From contig NC_057925.1 in assembly GCF_018873765.1 (NCBI RefSeq), positions 11,915,568 to 11,979,567 on the forward strand: a stretch of DNA of 64,000 nt. The letters are read 5' to 3'. Numbering within the stretch: position 1 is the first letter of the stretch; each line of letters begins with the position of its first letter. Shown one piece after another: positions 24,871-60,173 of the stretch. The notes under the pieces are model-generated. The model was not told where the DNA came from. It saw only the letters and a list, made by a program, of their open reading frames with translations, and did no database searches. Source of the DNA: Telopea speciosissima. Taxonomy: Eukaryota; Streptophyta; Magnoliopsida; Proteales; Proteaceae. Position numbers and translations under genes: made by a program.

Positions 24871-24920
24871 ATCACAATTGTGGGTTGTTTTTTTTTGATA
24901 AAAATCACAATTGTGGGTTG
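24871..24920 (-). mobile_element. Micro-retroinsertion with 17-bp TSD
   Basis: A perfect 17-bp duplication ATCACAATTGTGGGTTG (24871-24887 and 24904-24920) flanks only 16 bp: a T9 run plus GATAAAA. On the minus strand this reads TTTTATC-A9, like the last bases of a LINE with its A-tail. The matching DNA upstream of gene 3 (near 32300) has one copy and no insert. Confidence 0.75.
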
Positions 24921-25029
24921 AGTTTACCAAAAAAACAAAAAAAAAAAAAACAAAAATTATGTATTGAGTTTTCATAAATAAAAAAAAAAAACATATTTTT
25001 TTTTAGTATTCATTAAAAAAAAAATAAAA

Positions 25030-26275
25030 AAAATTACATGTATCACCCCTGAAGTTTCAAATAATTATGTCTACACCTGTAAAATTTCAATAATTACTTT
25101 TATTTTTTGAGTACTAACTTAGTTAGTTTTGGAAGGTTGTTGCCCTTTCTTATTTTTTAGAGAAATAAACCCGCTCCACCTGACCACTGTTACTGTTCAT
25201 CTTCACGGTCTTGAAGCAGATTCACCTTGACATCACTCCCCACAATTGTAGCAGCCACCACCACCGCCGCCACCACTAGCTACCGCCATACCTCCGCCTC
25301 CATGCTTATAGTCCCTAGCCAAGTGTTCAGTCTCACCGCGTAACATCCACCACCACCACTGCCATAACCTCCACCATTGTAACCACCCCCTCCCCCTTCA
25401 ACCACCACCACCTCTACTTGCACCGTTTTTTCCACCGTATCCACCATCTCCAGCGCTGTATCCACAACCTCCGCTTCCAAAACCGTAACTCCCACCACAG
25501 CTGCCCCTTCCCATATCGCCACCGAAACCATCAAACCCGTTGCATAGTGCATTTTTCTCCTAGAACCAACAACATTTATCCCCCATATCTTTGAGAACTT
25601 CCAGCGTCGAGAGCAGTAAAACTTCATCATCCACCTCATGAATCTCAAAACTGATGCATAGCGACCTAAACCTAATCCATTGAGCCACGTCCTCACACCA
25701 TCTTCCCGAGAACAAAACCTCTCCCGCTCACCAATCCTGTTCCTATGCGCACTAGTGCCGCACTTCCAATCCCTAGCATCAGTACCCAATGGGCCATCCA
25801 ATTCGATGGTGTCATGATCTCTGCATTTTGAAACCCTAGCCCTAAGCAATCTTCTCTAACCGGGAAATTGCACCTCTCTTTCATTCCCATGTCCCCTAGT
25901 AGAAGTTTGCCGCAAATCAATAGCCATATTTTCCAGTCACTGAATCGGGTTTTGTTCTTTCAGGAGGCATTCCGAACCCTCAAGATTGAAATCCCTATCT
26001 CCTTTTGCATCTCAATCATGGACCCAGGGTTAGTTTGGGGATTAAAAAAATTATTACCGTAGGGGTATATTTGTAAGGGTGTTATGACTTATGAGCATTT
26101 AGATTATATTTGGGTGATGACATCATCACTTAATTGTTCCCATCTAACGGTAGGGGTATATTTGTAAGAATCTTTCAAAATACAGGGAAGGTTTATGAAA
26201 TAGATGAAATTCCAGGGGTGGTAGGCATAATTATGTGAAAACACAGGGGTGAAAAACATAAAATTCACTTAAAAG
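25030..26275. mobile_element. Pack-MULE-like element A with captured gene fragments
   Basis: About 60-bp imperfect terminal inverted repeats. Left: TATCACCCCTGAAGTTTCA, then ATAATTATGTCTACACC. Right, reverse-complemented: TTCACCCCTGTGTTTTCA, then ATAATTATGCCTACCACC. The interior carries gene fragments on the minus strand. A second, truncated copy is at 32520-33174. Flanks are A-rich, so the target duplication is not resolved. Confidence 0.6.
25200..25830 (-). pseudogene. Chimera of a SAM-domain fragment and a glycine-rich zinc-knuckle (GRP2-like) fragment, copy A
   Basis: Read on the minus strand, 25830-25541 encodes the lead-in and SAM domain of a plant SAM-domain protein (GVRTWLNGLGLGRYA near 25700-25650, then GINVVGSRRKM near 25580-25550). 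A one-base loss after GRYASV and a one-base gain before GINVV shift the middle out of frame and back. Immediately after the SAM helix the sequence becomes a Gly-rich, GRP2-like segment with a zinc-knuckle remnant (CysTyr..GHLA-type words). Two unrelated genes are therefore joined. No full gene; probably not coding. Confidence 0.6.
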
Positions 26276-26279
26276 AAAG

Positions 26280-27119
26280 GGTAAGAGAATGCTATCTAGT
26301 CGCATGATCAATGGGAACATGTGTACAAGCAGCATCGAAAGCTAGACTTCCACCTTTCCGTGAAGGCAAGACGTTCGTTTTGTACCTACATGGCTACATG
26401 CCTTATTTCAAAAGTTTTTTAGTTTAAGAAAAAAAAGGGTTTTAAATTATTATATCATTATTAAATATTTTATATTGTTTTTCTGGAATTGGAGAGCTTT
26501 TAATAGGGGGAGGGGGATAGGCCCCAAGGTGATTTGCACTCATGACCTCTCATTTGAGGAGTTGGTCTTTTGCCAACGGAGCTGATCCCTTGGGGTAAAT
26601 ATTTTATATTGTTAAATAAACATGTGAAATGATAATATAATCGTTCATTGAAATTTAAAATATATATTATATTAAATAATTTTTAGAATAAGGTACAGTT
26701 TGACAACGTTACTGGTGTTTCGGTGACGTTTCTGACTAGAAACATATTTTGATGTTACTGTTACCAGAATAACGTTACTGGCTTTCTGAAAGGTGTTTGA
26801 TAAATCTGTTCCAGAAACGTATCCAAAATACTATTAATACTGAAAGGTGTTTGATAAAACCTGTTTCTACAACAGTTTTGTACTGGTTACTATAAATTAC
26901 AGAAATGCCATTAATATGATTTTTTTTTACATCTATCTTGATTTGAAAAAATTCTCCCATCTTTTAACTAAGTTGAAAGGATTCAAAATTTTTTTTCCGT
27001 ATTTTCTATGATGTGTTCTTTTCTTGTTAAGTGTTGGATATGTTTTTTTAAAAATGGATGGTGATGTCTCCGAAATCACAACATAAATTTGAGTCATTAA
27101 TTTTACATTTTCTTAAGGG
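26280..27119. repeat. AT-rich duplicon X, copy 1
   Basis: From about 26414 the sequence (AGTTTAAGAAAAAAAAGGG, then CATGTGAAATGATAATATAA) matches 33961-34303, with extra sequence here at about 26480-26600 and 26690-26900. No gene. Confidence 0.55.
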
Positions 27120-27303
27120 AAAGAGAATGCTACTTGGACGTGTGTGGTGTGCTGCCCCTGCACCCAAACATAGGGGTGCGCAAAATGATCGCCGCACCTC
27201 AGGATTTTTCACCTTTACATGGGAGTGCCAGTGGTCATTTTGTGCACCCCTATGTCTGGTACAGGGGCAGCACACTACATGCGCCAATGCAGTTCTCTTT
27301 CTT
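27120..27303. mobile_element. Fold-back MITE, GAATGCTAC family
   Basis: Near-complete hairpin: the left half AGAGAATGCTAC...GTGTGCTGCCCCTGCACC...CATAGGGGTGC is inverted in the right half GCACCCCTATG...ACAGGGGCAGCACAC...GTTCTCTTT. The paralogous copy is at 34304-34480. Confidence 0.75.
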
Positions 27304-27540
27304 CCCTTTTTTTTTTTTTTTTTTAATATAAATCATCTGCTCTCACCAGAGTCGAGAATGTGCACAATAATGTTTAGGGTACCAATACACATGATTATCA
27401 TTTTCAAAAGTAGAAGGTAATGTTTATGGAAATCACAGCATAAATTTGAGTCATTCATTTTTATCTTTTTCTTTTAATCTAAATTATCTGCTCTCACTCA
27501 TAGTTGGAAAAATACACAATAATGTCTAGAGTACTGATAC

Positions 27541-28142
27541 ACATACATGAACAATTACCGGATGTGTGCAAATACAAAAAGGGTATTTGATTGAATTAAA
27601 CTTTAAAATTTGAGATTTGACTAACCTAGATCATGTCCTCTCTGTCCAAGAAATGGAAAAGACGTATCATCTCTCCACATAGTACAATAGATGCTTATGA
27701 CATTTGGAAAAATAGCAAACCTTTGTAACATTAATAATTCACCATCTTGAAATGCTAAACAATGTATTTGCATGAATGGTCCAACTGATTATGGGTGTAT
27801 GGAGAATTAGTTGGAAGTGGGGGAAGTTATGTGGAAGTGTGGTTAGTTAATACAACCGTGTGTATTATGTATATGTGTGATTGGCTTGCTGCGTAGACAC
27901 AGCCAGACGTAAAATAATCGCCTTACTCCCATTTATGCAAGGTGCTCAGATGAGGATAAGACAATCATTTCACGCCTTGCTGTGTCTGCACAGTAAGACA
28001 ATTGGGTTACCCGTGCAGTAGACGATCGTCATTGATTTCGTCATAATATAGAAGATGATTTGAATGCAAATGACTTTGTTGGTAACGTATTAATTGTTTT
28101 CTTAGCTGAGAAGGATATTTCCAGATTTCCTTTCTTATAAAA
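27541..28142. repeat. Duplicon Y, copy 1 (with inner MITE 27883-28024)
   Basis: The words GGATGTGTGCAAATAC, TAACATTAATAATTCACCATC and CCAACTGATTATGGGTGTA recur at 33175-33960 and 34755-35600. The inner inverted segment holds AAAATAATCGCCTTACTCCC and matches 33668-33806. No gene. Confidence 0.65.
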
Positions 28143-28437
28143 ACTTAAGAAGGGAGACACATCGTCATTGATTTCGTCAGTCCAAAGGGGTTCTGTGGTT
28201 TTTTATTCTTAATGTTGTCTGATTGATAAATACCATTTACTGTACTAATCTTCATTCTTTAAACATGCCATCGTACAACATGTGTACAGAATAAAGATAA
28301 GTACAACAAATGACACTTACCAAAAAAAAAATACAACAAATGACATTTGTCAATCAGATAACATTAAGAATAAAAGATCACGAAACCCCTTTGGATTATG
28401 ACGAAATCAATGACGATATGTCTCGCTTCTTAAGTTT
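28143..28437. repeat. Inverted duplication (long palindrome), duplicon edge
   Basis: The left arm (28143-28278, with CGTCATTGATTTCGTCAG, TTATTCTTAATGTT and CATGCCATCGTAC) is repeated in reverse complement at 28280-28437 with scattered changes. The centre is near 28279. At 35747-35875 only one arm is present. Confidence 0.75.
28302..28348 (+). mobile_element. Micro-retroinsertion with 17-bp TSD
   Basis: The duplication TACAACAAATGACACTT (28302-28318; one mismatch in 28332-28348) flanks 13 bp, ACC followed by ten A. It lies in the right arm of the palindrome and is absent from the left arm. Confidence 0.65.
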
Positions 28438-28743
28438 TTGGGTAAATTATACGTCATCTCTTGGTTTTCAAACGAAACTCAGATCACCTCCTGGTTTTGT
28501 AAGAACTCAAATCACTCCTTTTATAGTAATGGTGTTAGTCCACTGTTAGTTATTTGTGTGAAAGGTCTATTTTGAGGCTAGGGTATGGGCAGCGGGGGGT
28601 GGCAATGGTGATGGTGATGACAATGATGGTGGTGTCATGGTGGTGATGAGACCATCAAGAGAAGAAGGGTGATGTTTTATTTTTATCATGAATTTATTGT
28701 TTATCCAATCAAATTAACCACGTGGTCATCAAAAAGCAAGAGT

Positions 28744-29200
28744 GAATTCATGTCGGCCCTGGTCAAGGATCTTGGAGACGGGAGGCGTGTGAATTCTTGC
28801 CGGTCCTGGTCAAGGACTCCACCACCTGCATCTGGCCTTCCAACATCACCGTCATCGATAATAGGCCAAAAATCGCTGGGCTTTGTCTGTCAGGCTGGCA
28901 TCTGGGAAAGTGGGGACCAGATAGGCTATCGATCATCTTTTTGGAAAATTACACGGCTTTGTCTGCCATGGCCATCCCTACTCACAAGGACATATGTCAT
29001 GTGTCTAGTCGAATTGTAAGCTCTGATTACAACCTTTTCTCTAGCGAAACTGTTGGGCTTGTCCATACCCTAGCCTGGAAGACCCTGTCAATTGCATGTA
29101 CGATAGATTGGTCATATTCCTCTCCTTGGTTTTGGATTCTTTGTACCCAAACATTGTGTACTTGAATGAATTTTTAATTACCAAAAAGGAAAAAAGAAAA
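28744..29200 (+). mobile_element. Retroposed insertion, likely 5'-truncated LINE
   Basis: This segment interrupts DNA that is continuous at 39130-39150 (AAGCAAGAGTGAAATCAATTTC). It ends TTTTTAATTACC plus an A/G-rich tail, which is LINE-like. Inner open frames (for example 28797-29165) have no recognised domain. Target duplication not clear. Confidence 0.5.
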
Positions 29201-30398
29201 GAAATCAATTTCAATTTGAAAATTGAAATATCTCCTCATCTATTTCATAATTTCTATTCTATTGGTTTCTATATCACTAAAATAAGGTGTAAAAAAGTCA
29301 AACTAAACAATTTCCAAAATAGAAATCAACTCATGAAATTGAAATAAACATACCAAATCAGACCAACAAAACATAGATTTATTGAAGATCGTCAACAAGA
29401 TTGTAGAAATTAAAGAATACTTTAAGAATTAGTTTCACTTATAAAACAGTTCAACTGCTATTTCTCTTCCAAACAAGACCACATTTGTTTTGCGGTAAAA
29501 TATTTATGAAGATTCTTGACAATTAATACAAAACTATATAAAGATTAGGAAGGGAGAAATGTATTATTGAAATGAAACACAAAAGAAACATCCAATTTAA
29601 AATTTTTGATGTTGTTTTCTCAAAAATTCTTGATTAATGGTACTCTTGGCATCCATGAAGAACTCCAACCCCGTCATATAATTGGATTATTTCTTTCATT
29701 CAAATGTGCTTCTTATTCATGTTTCAAAAAATATAAATTATATAACATTTTTTTTTAATGCAGCCCAGAGAAAGTGCTCACCTTTATATTGTGTTTCTTT
29801 CCATTTAAATTTTGGGATAAGTGTTTCCCGCATATAAGCATGGGTCAACGAAAACACAAGCGGAAGCATCAACATGAGCAGCATTTCGACCTTTCAAGAG
29901 GATGGGCCCATTATTTCACCCCTTATCTGCTCTCCCTCCATGCTCCCCATAGAGTTGTTTTTCTCCATTCATTTTTTGGAAAATTATCTCCACCAATTCC
30001 CTACCCAATCCAGTTCCTCAATGCCTCTAATAAGGGATGGGTGTATCGGGTAAGGGTTGGGTGGTGATTGAACTCCCTTTGTTAGAGGCATCGGGAAACT
30101 GGCCACAAAGGAAATTGGAGGAGATAAAGATCCTAACTTTTTCCTCTCGACATAAACATGAAAATCCCTTTTTCTGTCTATTTCATCATTTTTAATAATT
30201 TTTACATTAAATTAACTAATGAGACTTAATTATTTCTTTTAAAAAAAACGTTTTGGGTAAAGTTTTTATAAGGTTCCAAAAAAGGTCTTTATTAAAGTGC
30301 CAACTGTTATTATGAAAAAAAAGAAGTTCCAAATCGCTTCTTGAGAGAACGAGCTGATGATACTGAATCAGTTTGACAAGGACAACACGTCCGAGTTG
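29201..30398. repeat. 3' flank duplicon of gene 3 with two MITEs
   Basis: Matches the 3' flanks of genes 4 (39150-40276) and 5 (56395-58640). Contains a fold-back repeat at about 29815-29962 and a GGATCTTTATC-family MITE at about 29968-30136 (ATTATCTCCACCAATTCC against GGAAATTGGAGGAGATAAAG). No gene. Confidence 0.7.
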
Positions 30399-31790
30399 TT
30401 ATCTACGTTCCCATGACTCGGCCAAATTGGTAAACGCAGTCTTTGACGATCCACCTTCAGCCCATGCAGCCAAGGCCGCCTTCCTCATTTCCCTACACCG
30501 TTCTCTCATCTCTGTTCCCTCCTCCGAGTCCATCAACGCTCTGACTCGCTTCTCAACCTCGGCGGCCACCACAATCCCATTCTCCTCCGCCACCTCCATT
30601 GGCATTGCCAACTTCATCTCCTCCACCAAAACCACCTTATTCACTTCCTGTTCCGCATAGAGCGGCCAAGCCAGCAATGGCACCCCAGCGCACACCGCTT
30701 CTAAAATGGAGTTCCACCCACAGTGAGTCACGAATCCGCCCACCGATTTCCGACTCAGCACCTCTACCTGCGGCGCCCAGGACTTCACCACCAGTCCCCT
30801 GTCTCTGGTCCGATCAAGAAACCCCTCCGGCATCACAGCGTCAAGATCGAAATCTTCCGTAGCCGAAAATGAAAACCGTTTGTCACTATCCGGTGGAGGA
30901 CTTCGCACCACCCACAAGAACCTCTGGTCACTTCGCTCAAGCCCCGCGGCGATCTCTGCAAGCTGTTTCGCCGGGAAAACGCCGCGGCTTCCGAAGCTCA
31001 AGAACACAACGCTTCGACTGGGTTGCGCATCAAGCCACTTCAAGCAATCTGACTCAGTAGATTTATCTATGGGTTCTACAACTAATGGTCCAATACAGAA
31101 AAAAGCCGGCATTTGTTGTGTGACCGCCTCGATTACTCTTGGCTCTAGTGCTTCAAAGGTGTTTGATATAATTCCCCTTGATTTGGTGAGATGGATTGAC
31201 AAGTCCAACATATCATCGTAGAAAGCATTGTTGCGATCAAGTAAAATATCCGGCATCTGTACAGCACGAATTATGGGCAATCCCGGGATGTCGAGATTAG
31301 TGTTGCCAAGCTCCCTGAGGCTCTTGTCAGTCTGGTTATGAATCTTTGCAAGGTAAAGGAAGACGGAAAGACCAGAGGCACCGGTCGGCATGTAGTTGTA
31401 AAGAGGGATGTTTAGGTCGGCGGCAATAGGGAAGGCAGAGTAGCAGAAGAAATCGATCACAAGGGCTGCAATGGAGGAAGAGTTGGAGATGGTTTGGAGG
31501 GTGTGGAGGAGGTTTGGATTGTTACGGCTGATGGTTTGTAAGAAGGAGGGGGATGAAGATTCAAGTTTAGGAAGAGCAGGTAAGCGGTGGAAGACGATTG
31601 ATGGGTCTGTTTGAGAGACATGATCGATGTAAGAATCTACGGCAGGGTTGCTGACTGAGTAGCTCTGGATGAGGAGGACTGTGACAGAGAAGCGGTGACT
31701 ATGGTGGCGGATGATTAGCTTCCCAAGTTCAACCATGGAGACTAGGTGGCTAAGGCCCGGAACTGGGTACAGAACTATGGTGTCTTTCAT
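30399..31790 (-). CDS. UGT88-like UDP-glycosyltransferase, gene 3
   Basis: 463 codons, no intron, closest to gene 2 (20 residue differences). Catalytic His15 and Asp113 (LVIDF) are present. PSPG box W338-Q381, HCGWNS intact, Gln381 at the sugar-selecting end. Within the PSPG box residue 349 is Lys where genes 1, 2, 4 and 5 have Glu, a charge swap close to the HCGWNS motif. Starts at the ATG at 31788-31790. Expected role: UDP-glucose-dependent glucosylation of a small acceptor in the cytosol. A 156-bp stretch (31068-31223) is identical to gene 5, suggesting gene conversion. The promoter resembles that of gene 2, with a SINE-like head further broken by a 104-bp insertion. Acceptor unknown. Confidence 0.96.
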   Translation of the reverse strand: MKDTIVLYPVPGLSHLVSMVELGKLIIRHHSHRFSVTVLLIQSYSVSNPAVDSYIDHVSQTDPSIVFHRLPALPKLESSSPSFLQTISRNNPNLLHTLQTISNSSSIAALVIDFFCYSAFPIAADLNIPLYNYMPTGASGLSVFLYLAKIHNQTDKSLRELGNTNLDIPGLPIIRAVQMPDILLDRNNAFYDDMLDLSIHLTKSRGIISNTFEALEPRVIEAVTQQMPAFFCIGPLVVEPIDKSTESDCLKWLDAQPSRSVVFLSFGSRGVFPAKQLAEIAAGLERSDQRFLWVVRSPPPDSDKRFSFSATEDFDLDAVMPEGFLDRTRDRGLVVKSWAPQVEVLSRKSVGGFVTHCGWNSILEAVCAGVPLLAWPLYAEQEVNKVVLVEEMKLAMPMEVAEENGIVVAAEVEKRVRALMDSEEGTEMRERCREMRKAALAAWAEGGSSKTAFTNLAESWERR

Positions 31791-31934
31791 TTTTTTTCCT
31801 CCTCAGATCAGTTCTTTGAAAGGATGAGAAAAGCAAGTAGTTTAGACTTGAACAGAGCAAAGAGCAAAGAGCAAAGAGCAGAGCGAAGGGAGGAAGATCT
31901 GTTAAAAACAGGTAAGTGTCTAAAACTTAAATAA

Positions 31935-32090
31935 GACTAACGCAGTTGGCTCCTGGAACATTCCCCCCTCCCCGGTTCCATTTCAATTTGGATCTTCTAC
32001 TGCCGAGTTGCCCGATAGGACTGTGCTGTTCAGATACGATGCTACGTGCAATGTCTGTCTTACCCCTGCCCAAATGCCTTGTCCGTCTAT
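31935..32090. mobile_element. SINE-like head with nested insertion, gene 3 promoter
   Basis: Box A-like TAACGCAGTTGG (31938-31949) and GGTTCCA (31974-31980) align with the SINE-like head upstream of gene 2. Segment 31980-32083 is extra here and is an inverted relative of the repeat at 5300-5425. The shared TCTATAGAAAAAAA tail follows. The insertion predates the gene 2/3 duplication; the nested one came later. Confidence 0.55.
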
Positions 32091-32519
32091 AGAAAAAAAA
32101 ATATATAAAACTTCCACTTTTAAAAATAAAAAATTTAACCTTATTAAAAAAATAAAAATAAAAAATTAATTTATTTGGGCATACTGTTTTCCTTGTTAAA
32201 GACAAGGCCTTCCTGTCTTCCTGAGGAGAAACGTGCGGCACACGCCAATGAATTAAAAGTTTAAAACATATAGGTCTTTATTTTCCGTGTGCATGTTGTA
32301 GTCATCACAACTGTGGATTGAGTTGACCAAAAAAAAAAAAAAGAAAAAGCAAAAAAACAAAATTTATGGATTGAGTTTTCATCAAAAAAATTAGGGCAGA
32401 GTTTCTGCGGAGGGGCTAAAAAAATTATAACAAGATGTCTTTTCAGGAGAATTTTTGAGATTTTCCAAAAATTATAACAATTTCTTTTTGAGTACTCAAA
32501 AAAAAAAAAAAAAGAGAAA

Positions 32520-33174: not shown

Positions 33175-35880
33175 ATATGTGTAAATACAAATGGGGTATT
33201 TGATTGAATTAGGACTTTAAAATTTGACATTCGACTAATCTGATCACGTCCTCTCTATCCAAGAAATGAAAAAGACATATCAAGTGTCCACATAATACAA
33301 TAGATGCTTATGACATTTGGAAAAATAGCAAACCTTTGTAACATTAATAATTCACCATCTTGAAATGCTAAACAATTTATGTGCATGAATGGTCCAACTG
33401 ATTATGGGTGTATGGACAATTCGTTGGAAGTGGGGGAATTTATATGGAAGTGTGGTTAGTTATTACAACCGTGTGTAGTATGTATACGTTGTTTAAGTAA
33501 CGAGGGATAAAGATAGAGCATGGAATTATCACCTAAACTTATGTCTCACGAGATTGAGGACTATAGAACCTAATATCTTCTTCTTCACTTTTTATCTCTC
33601 TTCTCCATGGTCAACTCCCTTCTACCAAGATAGGTAACGATTGGGGTCTCTGCTGGGCTCGGTTGCCCTGACTGGCCTGCTGCATAAACACGACAAAACG
33701 TAAAATAATCGCCTTACTCCCATTTATGCAAGGCGTTCAGATAAGGATAAGACAGTCATTTCACGCCTTGTTGAATCTGCGCAGGAAGATAATTGGGGTA
33801 GCCGCCCAGATGATCGTCATTGATTTCGTCATAATATGGAAGATGATTTCAATGCAAATGACTTTGTTGGTAACGTATTAATTGTTTTCTTAGCTGAAAA
33901 GGACATTTCCAGATTTCCTTTCTTATAAAAACTTAAGAAGGGAGACGTATCGTCATTGATTTCAGTTTAAGAAAAAAAGGTTTTAAATTGTAATATCATT
34001 ATTAAATATTTTATATTGTTAAATAGACATGTGAAATGATAATATAACCTTTCATTGAAATTTAAAATATATATTGTATTAAATAAGAAAAAGAATAAGA
34101 TTATGATTTTTTTCTACATCAATCTTGATTTAAAAAATTCTCCCATCTTTTAACTAAGTTGAAAGGATTTAATTTTTTCGTATTTTCTATGACGTGTGCT
34201 GTTCTTGTTAAGTGTTGGATATCTTTTTAAAAATGGATGGTGATGTCTACGAGATCACAACATAAATTTGAGTCATTAATTTTTACATTTTCTTAAGGGA
34301 AAGAGAATGCTACATGGGCGTGTGTGGTGTGTTGCCCAAGACTTGAGCACATATGGATGCACGAAATGATCGTCGACACCAGAATTTTTCACCTTTCCAT
34401 GGGGTGCGGTGGTCATTTGCATGCCCTATGTCAGGCGCAAGGGTAGCATACTACACACGCCCATGTAGTGTTCTTTCATCCCTTTTTTTTTTTTTTTTTT
34501 TTTTTTAATAAATATAAGCCATGTGCTGTCACCAGAATCGGAAATGTGCACAATAATATGTGGGGACCAATACACAACGATCATCTTTTTCAAAAATTAC
34601 AAGGTATTGTCTATAGTAAATCACAATACTCAAATTTGAGTCATTCATTTTTATTTTTTTTACCTTTTTCTTTTAATCTAAACTATCTGCTCTCACTCAT
34701 AGTTGGAAAAGTACACAATAATGTGTAGAGTACTACTACATATACATGGACAATCACTGGATGTGTGCAAATACGAAGAAGGTATTTGATTGAATTAAAT
34801 TTTAAAATTTGACATTTGACCAATCTAGATCATGTCCTCTCTATCCAAATATTGAAAAAGACATATCATCGGCATATCATCTGTCCACATAGTACAATAG
34901 ATGCTTTCGACATTTGAAAAAATAGAAAACCTTTGTAATATTAATAATTCACCATCTTGAAATGCTAAGGCTCCGTTTAGTTGCAAAGGGAATTAAAGGG
35001 AAGGCAAGTAAATTTCACTTTACTTTGCATCCATCTCCCTTTGGTTTAAAATGTAAAATAAATATTACATGTAAAATATATCTTTACTAGATATGATAAG
35101 AAATTTAAATAGTTTCTTACACAATCAATAATAACGATTACAAAGCCTTCTATTTTTAGGTTTGAAAATTTTTCCTTCCCATTCTTTTAATTTTTCTTGC
35201 AAACAAACGGAGCCTAAACAATTTTTATTTGCATGAAAGTGTTCCCTTTCAGTTAAGTAATTGATCCAACTGATTATGGGTGTACAGAGAATTAGTTGGA
35301 AGTGGGGGAAGTTATGTGGAGGTGTGGTTAGTTATTACAACCGTATATATTATGTATACGTTATTTAAGTAATGAAGGATGAAGATATCTTCTTCCTCAC
35401 TATTTATCTCTCTTCTCCATGGTCAACTCGCTTCTACCAAGCTGGGCTCGGCTGTCCCAACTGGTTTGTTGTGCAAACATAAGTGGGAATAAGGCAATCA
35501 TTTCCCGCATCGCTGTGTCTGCACAGTAAGACAGTTGGGGTAGCCGCACAATAGACAATCTTGATCCGATAGGTAAATGTACTCAAAGCACGTACATACC
35601 AAATATCGTCATTGATTTGGTCATAATATATAATATATGATTTGAATGCAAATGAGTTTGGTGGTAACGTATTAATTCGTTTTCTCAGCTGAACTTAAAA
35701 AGACATTCCCAGAGATTTCCTTTCATATAGAAACTTAAGAAGGGAGACACATCGTCATTGATTTCGTCATAGTCCAAATGGGTTTTGTGGTCTTTTATTC
35801 TTAATGTTATCCGATTGATAAAAGCCATTTATTGTACTTTTATCTTTATTCTTTAAACATGCCATCGTAAAGCTCACCAG
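33175..35880. repeat. Rearranged duplicons Y'-X'-Y''
   Basis: Order: Y' (33175-33960), X' (33961-34754), Y'' (34755-35880). Each repeats the gene 2/3 intergenic units. The MITEs at 33668-33806 and 34304-34480 are the counterparts of 27883-28024 and 27120-27303. Segment 34971-35218 (GGCTCCGTTTAGTTGCAAAG...CAAACGGAGCC) is an extra MITE with inverted ends inside Y''. No gene. Confidence 0.65.
34971..35218. mobile_element. MITE with GGCTCCGTTTAGTTGCAA ends
   Basis: Starts GGCTCCGTTTAGTTGCAAAG and ends CTTGCAAACAAACGGAGCC, inverted. It splits the word GAAATGCTAAACAATTT, which is intact at 27757 and 33364; TAA is repeated at the break. About 250 bp, AT-rich, non-coding. Confidence 0.8.
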
Positions 35881-39070: not shown

Positions 39071-39075
39071 GTGAT

Positions 39076-40276: not shown

Positions 40277-40294
40277 AAAGTGCCAAATGTTATT

Positions 40295-43200
40295 TCAACC
40301 AAAAAAATGCTACATCCTCAAGCTCAGCCGTACATGGTGGTTCAGGCTCGGCTCTCCTAGCAAATGGTCCTTTCGACTTCCAGGGAACCGGTACACGTGT
40401 CCAACTTACTACCAACCCATTAAATCAGCCACAAGTACCTTTCTCTCACAACATTCCTAATCATCAAACCCCATACCCATTAAACCAAAACCCATTAAAT
40501 TCTTCTCTCTTTCCCATGCAAAACCTAGACCTTCCACATTTCCTAGCTTCCACTAACACGTCTCTTCCCTTACCCACATTTAATCCAGGCCAATTATCAC
40601 CTCTTCAAATCCTCCAACAACCTGAGTTAAATCAAACCATAATGAATCTGCTACCCTACCTCTCAAACTTCTCCCTATCCCACAACTTAAATAACTGTAA
40701 CCCACCTGTAACCAATACACGAACCAAAGTTTTCCAACTCAGCAACTTGGTCAAACCGGCCCATTGAACCTTAATGAACGGCCTTCATTTTCTGGTCAAG
40801 GTCCAATGCGACAAAGACCAGGTTTCCTCCAAAGCATTACGGATGAACATCATTATAATGAGCCTGGAGGAACAAGCGGTTACACCTTCTCCGAAGAGAA
40901 CCCGTTTGGTGATGGAAGAGGAGATTCCAGTGAAGATAAAATGGAAGAATCAATCAAGGAGGATAAGTCTGAAGATCAGCATTTTTTATCGTTTGGCCCC
41001 GTGGTGGTTGGGGAGTACAGCCCCACGGGTCATCATGAAAATTATAAGTTGGAGTTGTCGGGGTCTAGGGAGCTCCTGACAATTCGTTCTTTGAAAAATC
41101 TCCTCAAGACTGAGAAGCCGGATATTCTGTTTCTTATGGAAGTCAGAAATAACAGGGAAAAAGTTGAGAAAATTAGAAGGCAGTTCTTGGATCATTCCTA
41201 CTTCTATGTTGAATCTATAAATTCTGCAGGAGGCTTGGCTTTATTCGGTGGGGAGATATTCAGATTGAAATTATAAATTCCAGCCTTAATTTTATTGATG
41301 CTAAAGTATCCCTAAATGGTTATTCCCTTTCTTTCTAACTGGAATTTATGGAGAGCCGAGAAAGCATCGTAGAAGGGAGGTGTGGAATGTTATTTACGCT
41401 TTTTGGTTCAGCTCGGCAAGATAGCTGGATTGCAATAGGGGACTTTAATGCATATCTGTCTTGGAAAGAAAAATCAGGAGGTAATATCTCTCCTAATAAA
41501 GATTGTGAGGTGTTTAGAGCCTTCATAGATGGGTGCAATCTTCTGGATCTTGGGTATAATGGACCTCTCTTTACCTGGAATAATAGAAGAAAAGGTAATG
41601 AGAATATTAGGATCCGGCTTGATAGAGGATTTGCGAATTCGGCTTATTGCGCAAGATAATCCAGATTTCTCAGTGATGGTTAAAGCTTTAGTAGGATCAG
41701 ATCATGCTCCAATTTGTGTGAACACCAAAGGAATCTCATCTAAACGGATCCGGCCGTTTAGATTTGAGGATATGTGGTTTTCCCATCCCGATTGTGGCAA
41801 TGTGGCGAGGGAAGGCTGGTCCATTTCTTCGGGAGAGTCGCCCAAATAGAATGGCGAAGAAAGCTGGAAAATACAAAGGTTTCCTTTAAGAAGTGGAATC
41901 GGAGGAGCTTTGGTAATATTCATGTCAAAATCCAACAGCTCAAGGAGGAGTTGGAGAAATTGCAATCTCAATCGCAGGATGAAGATTTTCAAGAGAAAGA
42001 AGAAATGATTATCACTCAATTGGAAGCAGAGTTGTTGAAAGAAGAGCTTTTTTGGAAACAGAAATCCAGAATTGATTGGATAAAAGGGGAGATTTAAATA
42101 CAAAGTTTTTCCATGTGGTTACACTCAGAAGGCGCCAAAATAATAAAATTCTCAAACTCAAATATGCTGATGGCTCATGGACCAAATCAAGCGGATGTTC
42201 ATCTCCTTCTTCAGGAGTACTTCAAGGAGATTTATAAGGAAGGGTGTACGAATGAGGCTGCAATTGAGGAGGTGATTTCGAAATTCAACCAGTGGTCCTT
42301 GAAGATGTTAATGCAAATCGTGTAGAATACCGGATTTGGAGGAGGTAAAATCAGCTCTTTTTCTCTTGCCCCTCTAAAATCTCCGGCTTTGATGGGTTTC
42401 CTCCAAAATTTTTCAAAAATTTTGGGAGGGACGTTAGAGAAGATATCTATCAATTTGTTATTGATTTCTTTAAAAATGGATCCCTCTCAACTTGGCATAA
42501 CCGTACCCTCATCGCCTAATCCCAAAGTCTAAAGATGCTGACTCTGCAGATAAGTTACTGTCCTATTAGTCTATGCTCGGTGGTAGTGAAGATTATCTCC
42601 AAGTTATTGGCTACTAGACTTAAGATGGTCTTGGACTCTATTATTGATAGCTCCCAATCGGCTTTTGTTAGAGCAGGTATATTTCCGATAATATCCTCAT
42701 AGCTCATGAACTATTTCATTTTATTAAAAAAAGGAGAAAGAAAAGCCAATCCCAATTCATGGCTATTAAAGCTGGATATGCGCAAAGCATATGAGAGAGT
42801 CAATTGGAATTTTATTGAGAGGATGTTTCTTAAATTGGGTTTCTCGAAGTGTGGGTAAAACTTGTGATGTCTTGCATCAAGTCGGTTTCATATACTCTTT
42901 TGATTAATGGATCGGAATGTGGGGATATCATCCCTACAAGGGGAATTAGACAGGAGATCCCTATCTCCAACTATTTTTTATTATTTGTGCTCAAGCTTTA
43001 TCTTCCATCCTTAATGCGGCAATTTCAAAAGGAGAGATTCATGGTATTAAAATTAGAAATCGAAAGTGAGTGTCTTCTCCCATCTTCTCTTTTTGACGAT
43101 TGTCTTCTCTTTGGTAAAGCTCATATTAAAGAGGTAATTGAAGTGAAGAAATGTCTGGATCTCTTCATCAAGCTTCCGGTCAAGAGATCAATCTTAAGAA

Positions 43201-45228
43201 GTCTGCATTACCTTCAACAAAAATACTCATGCAAAATTTAGAAGATGGTTCTCTAGAGTGCTTAAGATTCCTTACGGAGATGGTCCGGCTAGATATCTTG
43301 GTCTTCCCACAGATTTCGGCATTTCCAAAAAATTGCTCTTTGAAGATATTAAGGACAGAACTATCTCCAAATTGCAAGGGTGGAAGAAGTCTCTCCTATC
43401 GCAGCAGGTAAAGAGGTCTTATTGAAATCGCAGCCCTCCCAATGACAAATTATGCAGGTGCAAATTTTAAGCTTCCAAAATCTTCTCTGGAGGAGATTAA
43501 AAGGGCCTCTGCAAAATTTTTTGGGATGACAATTCGAGAAACATAAGCTACAGTGGGTTTCTTGGAATAGAATGTGTAATTCAAAGCAATCGGAGGTTTG
43601 GGATTTAGAGATCCGTATCTTCACAACCAAGCTTTACTTGCTAAAAATGCTTGGCGCATGATTTCAAAACCGGATTCTCTTTGGGCGAGTGATGATGAAG
43701 AATATTTACTTTCCTAGTGGAGATTTTTTAAATGCTAAAGCTGGGGCATCAACCTTCGTGGGGTTGGCGGAGTCTCCTTGAAGGTAGGGATGCTTTATCC
43801 ATTGGTCTCGTTATGGTTGGTGGGGAAGGGTGATAAAATTTCAATATGGGAGGATAATTGGATACCCTCGGCCAAGAACTTCAAAGTTATCTCCCAAAAA
43901 CCGGATGATTGCCCTGTTGAGAGAGTTTGGATCTTATTCATGCTCCAACCGGATCATGGAAGGTGGATCTTCTAGATGCTTATTTTTGCCAGGTGATAAG
44001 AGGGCGATCCTAAAAATTAGCTTGAGCTTGTTTCCCAGTGAAGATAAGATGGTTTGGGGTGGAGCGAAGTCGAGGCATTTTCTCGGTCAAGTCCATGTAT
44101 CACATGCTGAAAAATAGGAAGGAGGTTAAGATATCTAACCAATCCTCCTCTTCATCAGTTGCTAATAAGAATCATATGTCCATGACAGATCAATTGTGGA
44201 AAAGAATATGGAATGCTAAAACCCACCGAAAATCAAGCTTTTTTTGTGGAGATGCTGTGCGAGATGGAATTGCGGTTGGAGAAGGTTTCATGGCCAGGAA
44301 AATTCCTATTAATCGGCTTGCTTCGGATGTGGGGAAAGTTTGGAAATAGTTGGTCACACGCTCCTTACATGTCCCTTTGCTAGAGCCGTTTGGTTTGGCT
44401 CATCCTTATCTCACTTAACCTCTATGCCTACTTTCAATAAGATGAGCGATTGGTTGCAAGTCTTTGGAATCCTATTTTTAGCGGGGATAAAAAAGCGGCT
44501 CAAGAACGATTCTCCCCTGGCCTCTTTCTTACTTTGGTTCATTTGGAAGGCGCGTAACGATTTGATTTTCAACAATAAGCAATGGTCACCACAGCAAGTT
44601 ATTTCCATGGTGAGAAAGCTCATCAAGATTTCTCTTCGGTGGTTTGCAAACCTCCCTCAGTCTCTATTGAAGTTGAAGAGAGAAATTTTCCTTCCTCCCA
44701 TTCTTGGACTTCCCCTAATGAGCCTTTCCTTAAAATTAAGCGTGATGCAGCATGGGTTAAAAATTCTGGTAAAGGAGGTTTAGGGGTCATCATCGGGATC
44801 ATCGGGGATTCTTATACATGCTTTTTCTTCGAGGTACCTCCGTGATTCTAGTCTTTACGCTGAGCGCTTGCTATTAGAACGGGTCTTCTTCAAGTGGCTA
44901 AACTCCATTTATCTCATATTGTGGTGGAGTCGGATTGCTTAAGCCTGATTCAACAATCGAATTCAAGAAGCTTCGACTATGAAATTGATGCTGTGGGCTT
45001 TGATATTCTTCAGCTTCAAAGCTCTTTTGTTGACTGTTTTTTTTGCTTTATTCCAAGGTCGTCTAATGTGGTTGCAGACTCCTTGGCCCGGTCGGCGCCT
45101 CGGTTGAGTCACCGATGGATTGGCGTTTCCACTCTGTGGCTTCTAAATCTCTGTGAGAAAGAGGCCACTGCTTGTACTGACTCTGGTTTTCAATGAATCT
45201 TCTTTCAACCAAAAACAAAAAAAAAGAA
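40295..45228 (+). mobile_element. 5'-truncated L1-type LINE with 18-bp TSD
   Basis: Flanked by AAAGTGCCAAATGTTATT (40277-40294) and AAAGTGACAAATGTTATT (45229-45246), an 18-bp duplication with one mismatch. An A-rich 3' tail (about 45210-45228) follows TTCTTTCAACC. The pre-insertion sequence is seen in the 3' flanks of genes 3 and 5. At 4.9 kb it begins in the ORF1/ORF2 area and so lacks the 5' end. Confidence 0.9.
40764..45196 (+). pseudogene. LINE ORF2 remains: endonuclease, reverse transcriptase, zf-RVT, RNase H
   Basis: Domains in order, in shifting frames. AP-type endonuclease: PDILFLMEVRNN near 41120, IAIGDFNAYLSWKEKSGG near 41435, LDLGYNGPLFTWNN near 41545. Reverse transcriptase: VSYTLLINGSECGDIIPTRG near 42890, DDCLLFGKA near 43100. 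Zinc-binding zf-RVT: LWKRIWNAKTHRKSSFF near 44195. RNase H: VVESDCLSLIQ near 44920, SNVVADSLARSA near 45065. The catalytic F/Y-A-D-D motif reads F-D-D: the Ala codon is missing. With many frameshifts and stops, the enzyme is dead. Confidence 0.9.
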
Positions 45229-45340
45229 AAAGTGACAAATGTTATTATTAAAAAAATCAAAAAAGTTCCAAATGGATTCTAGAGATAACGAGCTGATGAT
45301 ACTGAATCAGTTTGACAAGGACGACGACACGTCCGAGTTT

Positions 45341-46732
45341 TTATCTCCGTTGCCATGACTCGGCCAAATTGGTAAACGCAGTCTTTGACGATCCACCTTC
45401 AGCCCATGCAGCCAAGGCCTTCTCCCTCATTTCCCTACACCGCTCTCTCATCTCTGTTCCCTCCTCCGAGTCCATCAACGCTCTGACTCGCTTCTCAACC
45501 TCGGCAGCCACCACAATCCCATCCTCCTCCGCCACCTCCATTGGCATAGCTAACTTCATCTCCTCCACCAAAACCACCTTATTGACTTCCTGTTCTGCAT
45601 AGAGCGGCCAAGCCAGCAATGGCACCCCAGCGCACACCGCTTCTAAAACCGAGTTCCACCCACTGTGAGTCACGAATCCTCCCACCGATTCTCGACTCAA
45701 CACCTCAACCTGCGGCGCCCACGACTTCACCACCAGTCCCCTGTCTCTGGTCCGATCAAGAAACCCCTCCGGCATCACAGCGTTAAGATCGAAATCATCT
45801 GTGGCCGATAACGAAGACCGTGTGTCACTATCCGGTGGAGGACTTCGCACCACCCACAAGAACCTCTGGCCACTCCTCTCAAGCCCCGCGGCGATCTCTG
45901 CAATTTGTTTCGCTGGGAAAACGCCGCGGCTTCCGAAGCTCAAGAACACAATGCTTCGACTTGGTTGCATGTCAAGCCACTTCAAGCAATCTGACTCACT
46001 AGATTGATCTATGGGCTGTAAAACCAATGGTCCAATACAGAAAAAAGCCGGCATTTGTTCTCTGACCGCCTCGATTACTCTTGGCTCTAGTGCTTCAAAG
46101 GTGTTTGATATAATTCCCCTTGATTTGGTGAGATGGTTTGACAAGTCCAACATATCATCGTAGAACTCATTGTTCCGATCAAGTAAAACCTGCGGCATCT
46201 GTGCAGCACGAATTGAGGGCAAGCCTGGGATGTCGAGATTTGTGTTGCCAAGCTCCCTGAGGCTCTTGTCAGTCTGGTTATGAATCGTTGGAAGGTAAAG
46301 GAAGACGGAGAGACCAGAGGCACCGCTCGGCACGTAGTTGTAAAGAGGGATGTTTAGGTCGGCGGCAATAGGGAAGGCAGAGTTGCAGAAGAAATCGATC
46401 ACAAGGGCTGCAATGGAGGAAGAGTTGGAGATGGTTTGGAGGGTGTGGAGGAGGTTTGGATTGTTGCGGCGGATGGTTTGGAAGATGGTAGGGGATGAAG
46501 ATTCAAGTTTAGGAAGAGTAGGGAAGCGGTGGAAGACGATTGATGGGTCTGTTTGAGAGACATGATCGATGTAAGAATCAACGGCAGGGATGTTGAATGA
46601 GTCGCCTGACATGAGGAGAACTGTGACGGAGAAGCTGTGGCTATGGTGGAGGATGATTAGTTTCCCCAGTTCAACCATGGAGACAAGGTGGCTAAGGCCC
46701 GGAGATGGGTACAGAAATATGGTGCCTTTCAT
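45341..46732 (-). CDS. UGT88-like UDP-glycosyltransferase, gene 4 (HSGWNS variant)
   Basis: 463 codons, no intron, ATG at 46730-46732. His15 (PGLSHLVSM) and Asp113 (LVIDF) are present. The PSPG box W338-Q381 is complete except that HCGWNS reads HSGWNS: codon 357 is AGT (45662-45664 on the complement) where genes 1, 2, 3 and 5 have TGT. The His that contacts the diphosphate and the Trp and Asn around it remain, so activity is plausible but may be altered. N-terminal third closest to gene 5 (shared MSGDSFNIPAVD). Residues 224-240 differ from the otherwise shared sequence (REQ, VLQP). Upstream: TATA box 131 bp before the ATG. Downstream: 5-kb LINE about 110 bp past the stop, within the 3' flank. 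Acceptor unknown. Confidence 0.95.
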   Translation of the reverse strand: MKGTIFLYPSPGLSHLVSMVELGKLIILHHSHSFSVTVLLMSGDSFNIPAVDSYIDHVSQTDPSIVFHRFPTLPKLESSSPTIFQTIRRNNPNLLHTLQTISNSSSIAALVIDFFCNSAFPIAADLNIPLYNYVPSGASGLSVFLYLPTIHNQTDKSLRELGNTNLDIPGLPSIRAAQMPQVLLDRNNEFYDDMLDLSNHLTKSRGIISNTFEALEPRVIEAVREQMPAFFCIGPLVLQPIDQSSESDCLKWLDMQPSRSIVFLSFGSRGVFPAKQIAEIAAGLERSGQRFLWVVRSPPPDSDTRSSLSATDDFDLNAVMPEGFLDRTRDRGLVVKSWAPQVEVLSRESVGGFVTHSGWNSVLEAVCAGVPLLAWPLYAEQEVNKVVLVEEMKLAMPMEVAEEDGIVVAAEVEKRVRALMDSEEGTEMRERCREMREKALAAWAEGGSSKTAFTNLAESWQRR

Positions 46733-46862
46733 TTTCTGTTCCTTTCCACAGAAAGGATGAGAAATGCAAGTAGTTTAGGAGTGAACAGAGCAAAGAGCAG
46801 AGCGAAGGGAGGAAGAACTATAGAAACAAGGAAGTTGTCAGACACTCAAATGGGAATGAGCA

Positions 46863-46869
46863 TTTTATA
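46863..46869 (-). promoter_or_regulatory. TATA box of gene 4
   Basis: TATAAAA on the minus strand in the context GCCTATAAAATG, 131 bp upstream of the ATG. The same sequence and spacing occur in gene 5. A start site about 100 bp before the ATG would follow. Confidence 0.7.
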
Positions 46870-47338
46870 GGCGGCTCACGCCAGTGAATTTGACACATAG
46901 TTCTGGATCCTACTATTGCATGTTGTTATCATCACGCTATGCCTCTACATCACGCGTCTTGTTTTAAGTTACCTTCTTCAATCACCAGCTTCATCGTTTG
47001 GACTTCTTCCAAAATTTTCTGGTATAAGGGAAGACTTCCCTTGTCATAATCGTGGACTCACTCTGTCGGAGACAGTGAGGTGTGAAAAGATCGCCTCATC
47101 CTTCTCCAAGTGTCTTGTCCAAGCAAGTATGGGATAGTCTTTTCTCTCCTCACCAAGTTAGGCACTGCACATGCAGTTCAGGCAAGGTGCTGGATGGAAT
47201 CCAAGGGAATCGTGGAGTAGAGTCTGATTTGTCAATCCAAAAGACATGGAGGACTAAACCTGAAAGAGTCGATGATACCAACAAGTGAACTTTTACATGT
47301 GAGAACATTTCCTTTCAAGTAAGAAAGGCATATTTTTA

Positions 47339-47516: not shown

Positions 47517-47524
47517 TATTTTTA

Positions 47525-50446: not shown

Positions 50447-51009
50447 TGAGTTGAGTGCAAATAAATAGGTTTTCCTATTCTTATGAAAACTTAAGAAGGA
50501 AGACATAATCGTCATTGATTTCGTCATAGTCCAAATGGGTTTATTTGTGGTCTAACGCTACTAATGTTATCTGATTGAAAATACCATTTCTTGTGCTTAT
50601 CTTTATTTGTTTAAACATGTAGTTGTTGGATTCACCTTAGCCATCGTCGTGAGCCTCATCAGACAAGACCAGTGTAGATTGGCCCACATGCATCGAATCT
50701 TTATCCCTTTCAATTCCTTACATGGGGATGAGAATGACCACCCTATCTCCTATCCGAAAATATTGTCCAAAGTGGGATCCACTCCCTCTATTAGAGGACT
50801 TGAAAGAATTAGAGGTGCCCGCAGAATTGAAAGTGATAATTATTCCACATATACCACCCTCACTCGTAACTTTCCATCTTTTTCCTTTGTCTAAGTGGTG
50901 GTTGATTGACTTCTCTGACAGAGAGCCATCAAGCACACCACTTATCGGTGATGGTGGTTCTTTGACCCGTCACAAAGAATAATTAGGTTGAATGTGAAGT
51001 TTGTTATAA
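50447..51009. repeat. Upstream duplicon of gene 4, with MITE 50698-50846
   Basis: Matches 61010-61515 upstream of gene 5, including a worn GGATCTTTATC-family MITE (50698-50846; counterpart 61245-61385). No gene. Confidence 0.6.
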
Positions 51010-51018
51010 TAAAGTTTG

Positions 51019-54100: not shown

Positions 54101-54153
54101 TAAGTAAGAAAATAGTTCTTTTTTTTTGCGTAACATAAGTAAGAAAATAGTTC
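54101..54153 (-). mobile_element. Micro-retroinsertion with 18-bp TSD
   Basis: A perfect duplication TAAGTAAGAAAATAGTTC (54101-54118 and 54136-54153) flanks 17 bp: a T9 run plus GCGTAACA, i.e. TGTTACGC-A9 on the minus strand. Single copy at 62467 in the paralogue. Confidence 0.8.
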
Positions 54154-54598
54154 GCTTTAATAGGAACGTGGCAAGCAATTGCGATACGCCGATATCAACC
54201 ATTACATTAGTTAGATAGGGTTAGAAAAAGATATTCACAACTAGAGAAAAGGTTCTCTAAGCCTCAGCGAGGGTGCGTTAGACTTTCTCTCTTTATCTTT
54301 CTCCTCCTCACATAAAATGACCTTGCTGCTCTCTAATGTACAAAACCATTTTGTTACACTTCATAGGTGCGCTCCTATCTCTCACTTGCTCAAAGAACCC
54401 TCTCCCTTCCAACAAATATGAGGGAAGGAATTAAGTGGAGTTTGAATCTAATAGTTTAGACATCGGCAACATCTCACTTAAACTACAAGGACAGCCTCTA
54501 GAGGTGTGACAGAAAAATCCAATACACCATTAGATCATGTGATTGAGTTTGACTATGAGATTTTAGCATTTGGCCAATCTAAAGGTCTCCAAGTCATC

Positions 54599-55082
54599 TC
54601 AGAGCGACCCCCATTGTTTTTTCGAGAGGAACACATGGACGAAAACGGATTTTAGTTTTGAGATCGGAGTCGGAAGATATGAACAAATAGTGATGAAAGT
54701 GTTGAATACGTGTTCTGTGAAGTAGAGCTTGCTGCCAGTGATCGTCCAGGAGGTGTTCCTATATTCTGGAATGTATTGGCTGCTCAGGGAGAGGTAGGCC
54801 ATATTCCCAAACCTTAAACTTGTATTTTGTGTTGGGTAATGTCATGTATTACCTGAGTTAGGGTTTTGAACACTGCATGGATTGGGGAATTATTTGTTTA
54901 TCTTTGATTGATTGTAATACCAGTGGGTTGTTGCTCACTTGGTCATTCGGGTAGTTGCCCTAGCCTTTCATGTTCATTGAGGATTGAAGCAAGGTTGGAG
55001 GGAACCCTTGATTGTATTATTTTACAAGGAATTTTATAGTGAATGAATACCCAGTGAGGGTGGAAAAAAAAAAAAAAAAAAA
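54599..55082 (+). mobile_element. Retroposed sequence with poly(A) and 18-bp TSD
   Basis: AAAGGTCTCCAAGTCATC (54581-54598) and AAAGGTCTCCAATTCATC (55083-55100) flank 484 bp ending in about 20 A. The paralogue at about 62910 lacks it. The 3' part GTGAATGAATACCCAGTGAGGGTGG precedes the A-tail. Either a 5'-truncated LINE or a processed transcript; no protein family recognised. Confidence 0.8.
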
Positions 55083-55273
55083 AAAGGTCTCCAATTCATC
55101 TAATTAATAGTTGAAATAGCTAATCAACATTACAAAAGTTTAATACTTGGAAATATAGCGAAATAGTTTAATATGTGATGGATCATATGATTGAGATATT
55201 TCTTGAAACTTAATATGTGTTTTTTCCTAACAAGTAAAAGGTAATGTTGTAATTCCAAATGCAAGCATATCAA

Positions 55274-55317
55274 GGTAATGGTCTATTTACCCAAAAAAAA
55301 AAAAAGGGTAATGGTCT
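55274..55317 (+). mobile_element. A-tailed micro-insertion with 11-bp TSD
   Basis: GGTAATGGTCT (55274-55284 and 55307-55317) flanks ATTTACCC-A13-G. A related, longer A-run is at 63145 in the paralogue, so this one predates the duplication. Confidence 0.5.
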
Positions 55318-55681
55318 GGATTTGCCAAATATCAAATTTTAAACTTAGAAACAATTATATATCTTCTCATACATTAGCATATTCAGGTATTCCCTTTTAT
55401 TATCAACCATCCATTTTTTTTTAAGTTTCTTTTTTTCATTGAATTTCAAATCTTTATTTGCCTCTAGCAACTATGTGGCAAATAAGATTATTGGTGTAGG
55501 GATATCCTCTATGGGAAAATAATGCCACCTAATCACGTGGGCCGCATGGTTCCTGTTCTTAGACACAGAAGCGCGTGAAAGTATTGTGCTACTCCCATGA
55601 AAAGGCAAAAATCCCACACAAGGTGATGCTTGCGCATGTAGGTTCTAGAGGTCCAGATAGTGATCACTTTCCCTAACATCT

Positions 55682-55730
55682 ATATGGTATATGTGTTTCG
55701 CCAAAAAAAAAATAATATGGTATATGTGTT
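55682..55730 (+). mobile_element. Micro-retroinsertion with 16-bp TSD
   Basis: A perfect duplication ATATGGTATATGTGTT (55682-55697 and 55715-55730) flanks TCGCC-A9-TA (17 bp). Single copy near 63546 in the paralogue. Confidence 0.8.
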
Positions 55731-60166: not shown

Positions 60167-60173
60167 TTTTATA
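60167..60173 (-). promoter_or_regulatory. TATA box of gene 5
   Basis: TATAAAA on the minus strand in GCCTATAAAACC, 135 bp upstream of the ATG, aligned with the gene 4 box. Confidence 0.7.

Follow-up and report, generated by a model that had tools for sequence, protein, structure and literature searches.

Stubs and longer insertions in the window

The window, that is the whole 64-kb stretch of DNA analysed here, contains very short insertions made up of a few bases followed by a run of A residues (hereafter stubs), each lying between the two copies of a target-site duplication (TSD). Five such sites were listed in the first-pass annotation, and at all five the direct duplication around the A-run stub is exact in the sequence. 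At 24871..24920 (minus strand), 17-bp TSD copies (24871-24887 and 24904-24920) flank TTTTATC-A9 in tail orientation, and the paralogue at about 32304-32320 carries a single copy. The site at 28302..28345 (plus strand), which has an arm of a palindromic element on either side, is as described, but the insert flanked by the 14-bp TSD reads CTTACC-A10 and not ACC-A10; comparison by eye places its empty site, where the sequence is diverged and present once, at about 35823-35837 in reverse complement. The site at 54101..54153 (minus strand) has an 18-bp TSD flanking TGTTACGC-A9, with an empty site at about 62466, and that at 55682..55730 (plus strand) a 16-bp TSD flanking TCGCC-A10-TA, with an empty site at about 63544. 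At 55274..55317 (plus strand), an 11-bp TSD flanks ATTTACCC-A13-G. Here the paralogue is likewise filled and its counterpart is an A21 run at 63146, A-run length varying between copies of one site.

Two further sites had escaped the earlier survey. The sixth micro-insertion, at 22754..22806 (minus strand), has a 13-bp TSD flanking GTTTACCGAAAT-A14-C and single-copy counterparts near 58380, 40145 and 30145, in which the edge differs by a further 8 bp. A weak seventh candidate, at 4859..4889 (plus strand), consists of a 10-bp repeat flanking C-A10. It is positioned at the edge of the 3' member of two terminal repeats which are 94% alike. The scan rows at 8383, 15394, 24710, 24932 and 24976 (entered twice, once for each of two runs) were left uncounted as A-rich or AT-only repeats. 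A 10-bp repeat around 30 nt and A7 at 63785-63841 was also rejected, since its inner sequence is present in the paralogue and it is therefore not an insertion.

Longer elements are also present. An A-tailed insertion of about 0.5 kb at 54581..55101 (plus strand), ending in A22 and flanked by a 19-bp TSD with one mismatch, has an empty site near 62915 and shows that a longer template was retro-inserted in the duplicon that also holds stubs. Another insertion, of about 0.43 kb, at 28751..29195 (plus strand), ends in TTTTTAATTACC-A5, has a poor, short TSD and is absent from the paralogue at about 39140. The insert ending near 29180 had been taken for a LINE whose end the stub tails resemble; we found no similarity between it and the pieces of a LINE at another locus (L028). 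A decayed LINE with putative limits at 42349..45225 (plus strand) retains reverse transcriptase similarity at 42672-43401, and its 3' end is probably CTTTCAACC-A5-C-A9 at 45202-45225.

Single-copy empty sites were thus found by paralogue comparison at 24871, 28302, 54101, 55682 and 22754; they had been claimed for three of the five sites first listed and are present at four. Outside the window, empty sites were identified for L003-minus:2909 (compared with L004) and for L010:1677 (compared with a diverged copy in L016). At 24871, 54101, 55682 and L003-minus, the empty site lacks both the whole insert and one copy of the repeat. The paralogues display insertions that carry A-tails and not bare slippage duplications without them. 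At 55274 and L003-plus, by contrast, each of the two copies compared carries the insertion, and that at 55274 is therefore older than the duplication.

Excess over chance, anatomy and size class

The direct-repeat counts for the window exclude the array at 2700-3960 and low-complexity repeats. An A/T-run of at least 8 was held by five of the seven direct repeats found in the window at k of at least 13 and gaps of 10-30 bp (expected 0.14; binomial p = 7e-8). At k of at least 10 and the same gaps, the count was seven of 27 (expected 0.55), and 100 Markov resamplings in which the runs were kept in place gave a mean of 0.06 and a maximum of 2 against the 7 observed. The excess beyond chance predicted outside the window was recovered in a 200-kb sample (made up of 20 pieces of 10 kb each, taken from nine large contigs; L001 and L002, which overlap the window, are excluded from the counts), where four of 20 direct repeats at k of at least 13 held an A/T-run of at least 8 (expected 0.21; p = 5e-5). 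The enrichment over expectation was 13-36-fold in the window and 9-19-fold in the sample. Stub density in the sample is about 25 per Mb, an estimate from five events among which L017-minus is AT-rich and weak.

The 17 sites in hand share a common anatomy. The TSD is 10-18 bp long (median 15); because the sites were found by their duplications, the presence of a TSD is uninformative and its length alone is informative. In A-orientation, the larger non-A part precedes the A-run (A8-A23) in 16 of the 17 sites, and 0-2 extra bases separate the A-run from the second TSD copy in 15, the others being L017-plus, with 5, and L026, with 13 bases after its first A-run and with a second A-run. Total insert length is 11-27 bases. 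The TTTT/AA nicking motif proposed for these sites is weakly visible: the endonuclease motif TT|AAAA gave 33 of 68 matches, compared with 20-31 at shifted offsets.

The inserts also fall in a narrow size range. Across 303,194 bases and 243 A-runs, and with an exact TSD of at least 11 required, 13 inserts had 0-14 nt of non-A sequence, whereas three decoys with shifted flanks gave 0, 0 and 1. Three sites lie outside these settings and are left out of the count: 4859 because its TSD is 10, 55682 because of the complexity filter and L026 because 13 bases follow its run. For non-A parts of 15-149 nt there were no inserts (decoys 3, 0 and 1). Above 150 nt, 15 TSD-like pairs exceeded the decoys (7, 7 and 9), and some longer insertions therefore exist.

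Stub tails and LINE 3' ends

LINEs with a reverse transcriptase are numerous in this genome: a zf-RVT search gave 14,907 first-look candidates, and each of the 150 that were scored was over the cut-off. One LINE, at L028, includes reverse transcriptase, zf-RVT and RNase H-type domains and ends in ACTTATC-A13, an end which resembles the stubs at 24871 and L005 (ATTATC-A9). Stub bodies, at 1-14 bases, are too short to be aligned to a LINE, and tails were instead compared using a weight matrix built from 26 LINE tails picked by eye among 37 loci (L028 together with sets of 16 and 20). Eight of the loci had no A-run at the scanned lengths, and the runs of L042, L043 and L056 were dropped by eye. 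That all 26 tails end in C is favoured by this selection, because the three dropped runs end otherwise (26 of 29 when they are included).

The 17 stub tails had a median score of 4.45, compared with -6.56 for 210 other A-runs (p = 5e-6). Five of these stubs come from the first-pass selection; loci L030-L064 other than L053 are excluded from the test, and the controls exclude three A-runs, namely those of the LINE ends at L028 and L029 and that of the filled paralogue at 63146. The separation persists in the 10 stubs that lie outside the window (p = 6e-4), in the 12 left when the five earlier sites are removed (p = 8e-4) and after restoring the three LINE-locus runs dropped by eye (p = 7e-6). 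The base before the A-run is C in 13 of 17 stubs and in 68 of the 210 other A-runs. Stubs scoring below zero are three that end in T (CGAAAT, TACATT and ATAAAT), one CTTC and, slightly, ATTATC.

An exact match of the last four bases to one of the 26 LINE tails was found for four of 17 stubs and 22 of 210 controls. The commonest stub ending, TACC (six of 17), is absent among the 26 LINE tails sampled, and the source LINE family was therefore not found. Word counts before all A-runs show a modest excess of ACC, CCC and TACC, which we do not take as proof. A Fisher test of motif against TSD (p = 2e-5) was discarded, its motif having been chosen from the same data, and was replaced by the LINE-trained matrix.

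Origin of the stubs and comparison with known systems

We consider that the stubs probably result from aborted target-primed reverse transcription by a putative L1-type LINE machinery, with one insertion per site. The LINE endonuclease would nick one strand, and the A-tail of the template RNA would pair at the nick. Reverse transcriptase would then copy the A-tail and a few bases from the RNA 3' end before stopping. Cutting of the second strand about 15 bp away and joining of the very short cDNA would leave a TSD, a stub of a few bases, an A-run and a second TSD copy. The enzyme, the order of these steps and the use of LINE RNA itself as template are what we infer from the sequences. Telling against this origin are the low rate of exact matches in the last four bases, the lack of TACC among the 26 LINE tails, the stubs with scores below zero, the bases that follow the A-run at L026 and L017-plus, the weak nicking preference and, above 150 nt, the surplus of TSD-like pairs. 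The earlier reading of the sites as extreme 5'-truncated target-primed insertions agrees with the TSD lengths, the position of the tail, the empty sites, the LINE-like bases of the tails and the enrichment seen beyond the window. A discrete size class is not, however, predicted from extreme truncation alone, and because the class is narrow it suggests abortive early synthesis or a template previously reduced to its 3' end, rather than the tail of random 5' truncation.

It is unlikely that the stubs derive from polyadenylated RNAs of another kind (mRNA or SINE) which LINE enzymes mobilised in trans and which were truncated to their 3' ends. The three T-ending stubs fit no LINE tail, the 0.5-kb A22-tailed insertion shares its duplicon with stubs, and flowering-plant L1-clade enzymes have been proposed to accept poly(A) RNAs (PMC3747384), but the prevalence of C before the stub A-runs and the separation given by the LINE-trained matrix argue against such a source. 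Marginally less probable still is a dedicated, very short RNA template (such as a processed 3' fragment of a LINE with the end TTTACC-An) of which each stub would be the full length. GTTTACC with an identical first base occurs at 22754, L013 and L029, with TCTTTACC at L053, and the empty 15-149-nt class is also consistent with this idea; however, stub sequences and starts vary (TTTTATC, CTTACC, TGTTACGC, CTACC, CTTC, ATTATC), so that one fixed RNA cannot account for all of them.

Tandem duplication during the repair of paired nicks or of staggered breaks, in which A-rich filler would be added without any retrotransposition, is very improbable. Small tandem duplications at breaks are on record (PMC8355091), and direct repeats around fillers other than A-runs do exist here (16 of 20 pairs in the sample and two of seven in the window, at k of at least 13), but the A/T-run enrichment and the one-ended A-run preceded by LINE-like bases are unexpected for filler, and the stubs do not show the filler without an oriented A-tail that break repair would be expected to leave. 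Poly(A) slippage or microsatellite growth adjoining chance direct repeats, with which the differing A-runs of 55274 and 63146 would agree, is already contradicted by the empty sites and by the near absence of such inserts at decoy flanks (0, 0 and 1), and can hardly be entertained.

If aborted target-primed synthesis is indeed the source, the stubs would reveal the places where LINEs prime and the frequency with which copying fails early, and this could be tested in ordinary assemblies and pangenomes of plants. Part of the short poly(A) microsatellites, and of the small indels that carry direct repeats, could have the same explanation. Were the sample density to hold, there would be about 20,000 stubs genome-wide (Poisson range about 7,000-48,000, from five events), and LINE activity in the genome would therefore be badly undercounted. 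We put forward more tentatively the idea that plant L1-type LINEs may have a distinct abortive-initiation outcome, in which reverse transcriptase often stops some 11-27 nt past the priming point and the stubs are sealed by the cell with full-length target duplications. These would form a discrete, uncounted class, perhaps of thousands, that may outnumber recognisable LINE insertions and would record priming attempts. Stubs are easily overlooked in ordinary repeat annotation, and no class of such short insertions in plants was found among the titles that targeted searches of the open-access literature gave. Their density and sharp size class look new; the mechanism is already known, and there is a human precedent for the insertion of a tail alone.

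Human L1 TSDs peak at 14-16 (PMC2912911), and 224 of 233 L1-clade families of flowering plants end in (A)n (PMC3747384). Like 5'-truncated L1-clade LINE insertions, stubs have a 3' A-tail, a TSD of about 15 bp, single-copy empty sites and LINE-type tail bases; unlike them, they carry 1-14 non-A bases before the tail, with none of 15-149 nt in 303 kb, and the insert cannot name its family. The poly(T) insertion of about 120 bp in human NF1 exon 25, according to its authors possibly a severely truncated Alu, L1 or processed pseudogene, is likewise almost only tail (PMC3219598). It is one of 18 insertions in that gene (PMC3219598), whereas stubs combine A8-A23 with a few LINE-like bases and occur at the sample density given above. 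Mammalian tailless retropseudogenes are also truncated-RNA retro-insertions ascribed to L1 machinery, but they derive from tRNA and tRNA-related SINE RNA and have no poly(A) tail (PMC3747384), whereas stubs are mostly tail. Finally, the small tandem duplications produced by break repair (PMC8355091) share the direct duplication with stubs, but neither an oriented A-tail nor LINE-like bases would be expected of them, and both are present in stubs.

Short A-tailed insertions and their empty sites

The five sites proposed in the first-pass annotation to be extreme 5′-truncated target-primed insertions (24871, 28302, 54101, 55274 and 55682) are confirmed as perfect direct duplications of 11–18 bp, each enclosing 5–8 non-A nucleotides and an A-run of 9–13 which, in the orientation of the tail, adjoins the second copy with 0–2 bases between. 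The insert at 28302, listed as ACC-A10, reads CTTACC-A10 in the sequence. A direct-repeat scan of the window added a sixth site of the same form (22754–22806, minus strand) and a weak seventh (4859–4889). The remaining rows were discarded as low-complexity repeats, and that at 63785 was rejected because paralogue comparison shows no insertion. Together with ten such stubs outside the window, the 17 listed sites have inserts of 11–27 bp and duplications of 10–18 bp (median 15). A possible eighth, older micro-insertion (~24914–24970, filled also in its paralogue at 32314–32377) was left out of all counts; its 11-bp repeat, exact at 32314 and diverged at 24914, encloses (T)TACC or GACC and an interrupted A-rich stretch, and its left copy is overlapped by site 24871.

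Self-comparison reveals duplicated blocks within the window. Clean single-copy empty sites are present in the paralogues of 24871, 54101 and 55682. Beyond these, the counterpart of 28302, within an inverted copy near 35830, is single but diverged; for 22754, three other duplicons each carry a single-copy counterpart, and the edge of the site shows a further 8-bp difference. Site 55274 is filled in both paralogous copies, the other carrying diverged duplications and a longer A-run, and the insertion is therefore older than the block duplication. Elsewhere in the genome, the insertion at L003-minus:2909 has an empty site in locus L004, that at L010:1677 has one in a diverged copy in L016, and L003-plus:2853 is filled in L004 too; L003:2740–3030 holds two micro-insertions within ~60 bp in opposite orientations, one common to L004 and the other absent there. 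In a survey of gaps of at least 8 bp across 16 aligned block pairs, many other indels lack a duplication of at least 11 bp at the gap; one that differs is the tandem duplication of 14 bp at 31854, where no A-tail is present.

The window also includes four duplicated units of ~1.6–1.8 kb, 88–93% alike (22809–24619, 30154–31981, 45229–47065 and 58387–60369), and a related unit, 75–76% alike to these, at 5551–6983. Close to where these units end, 24601–24690 is what we take to be a tRNA-type promoter-like stretch followed by an A-rich tail. A probable LTR-type element occupies 2063–4859, with ends 94% alike (2063–2658 and 4249–4859) and a dense tandem array (~2743–3948) between them. Site 28302 sits between the arms of a palindromic repeat (28126–28438) with three related copies at 35716, 50471 and 61029. 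Two further insertions, 56003–56158 (156 bp, containing an inverted repeat) and 62151–62310 (160 bp), each occur in one of two paralogues only.

Excess over chance and a discrete size class

Repeats with 10–30-bp gaps were counted for A/T-runs of at least 8, leaving out low-complexity repeats and one tandem array. In the window, 7/27 direct repeats of at least 10 bp and 5/7 of at least 13 bp include such a run, where chance predicts 0.55 and 0.14; when the sequence was resampled under a Markov model with the runs fixed in place, the count averaged 0.06 and never exceeded 2, compared with the 7 observed. The predicted A-run excess extends outside the window: in a 200-kb sample of the genome (822,943,500 bases, 1,287 contigs), comprising 20 regularly spaced stretches of 10 kb from nine large contigs with arrays left out, the corresponding figures are 5/55 (0.58 expected) and 4/20 (0.21 expected). 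Five events in 200 kb give a rough density of ~25 per Mb, and further sites were met incidentally in small loci extracted for other purposes (two in L003, and L005, L029 and L053).

The size spectrum was drawn from 303,194 bases with 243 A-runs of at least 8, accepting exact duplications of at least 11 bp around any insert up to 6 kb, and three decoys had the 3′ flank shifted 40, 80 or 120 bp further on. A non-A part of 0–14 nt precedes the run in 13 cases (decoys 0, 0 and 1); no case has 15–149 nt among these bases and runs (decoys 3, 0 and 1). Above 150 nt there are 15 cases and, since the decoys give 7, 7 and 9, some may be real longer insertions.

Source of the tails

First-look candidates from a search with zf-RVT numbered 14,907; 150 of them were scored, all above the cut-off. 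The LINE at L028, with RVT_1, zf-RVT and RVT_3 domains, ends in ACTTATC-A13, an ending found also at sites 24871 and L005; directly downstream lies a tandem satellite-like repeat of ~168-bp spacing (~2750 to at least 5840). Among 26 LINE 3′ ends picked by eye from 37 LINE loci, all 26 have C directly before the A-run, three runs lacking it having been omitted by eye. A matrix from these tails bears out the proposed likeness of stub tails to LINE ends (median 4.45 for 17 stubs vs −6.56 for 210 other A-runs, p 5e-6), and the separation persists for the ten stubs outside the window only (p 6e-4), without the original five (p 8e-4) and when the three runs omitted by eye are restored (p 7e-6). Exact agreement counts against a LINE source: the last four bases are those of a LINE tail in only 4/17 stubs vs 22/210 other A-runs, and TACC, the commonest stub ending, is absent from the 26 tails. 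Because the matrix separates the stubs, yet these matches are few, the tail sequences support LINEs as the probable class of source and do not pin down an individual family.

Mechanism and comparison with known insertions

Both insertion by target priming and 5′ truncation are well established. If truncation fell at random along a LINE several kb long, such stubs should be rare and inserts should also occupy the 15–149-nt range; the gap observed there argues for early abortive synthesis or a very short template rather than simple random truncation. Aborted target-primed reverse transcription is the best account, the steps beyond the anatomy being those that we infer: synthesis would halt after the A-tail and a few more bases, and second-strand cutting and joining would then proceed normally. 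The TT|AA nicking preference expected of such events is weak (33/68 matches vs 20–31 at shifted offsets).

Our searches of open-access papers turned up no report of a discrete plant class of such size and density. A precedent for tail-only insertion in man is about 120 bp of T in NF1 (PMC3219598). The duplications resemble those of human L1, whose lengths peak at 14–16 (PMC2912911), against a median of 15 here.
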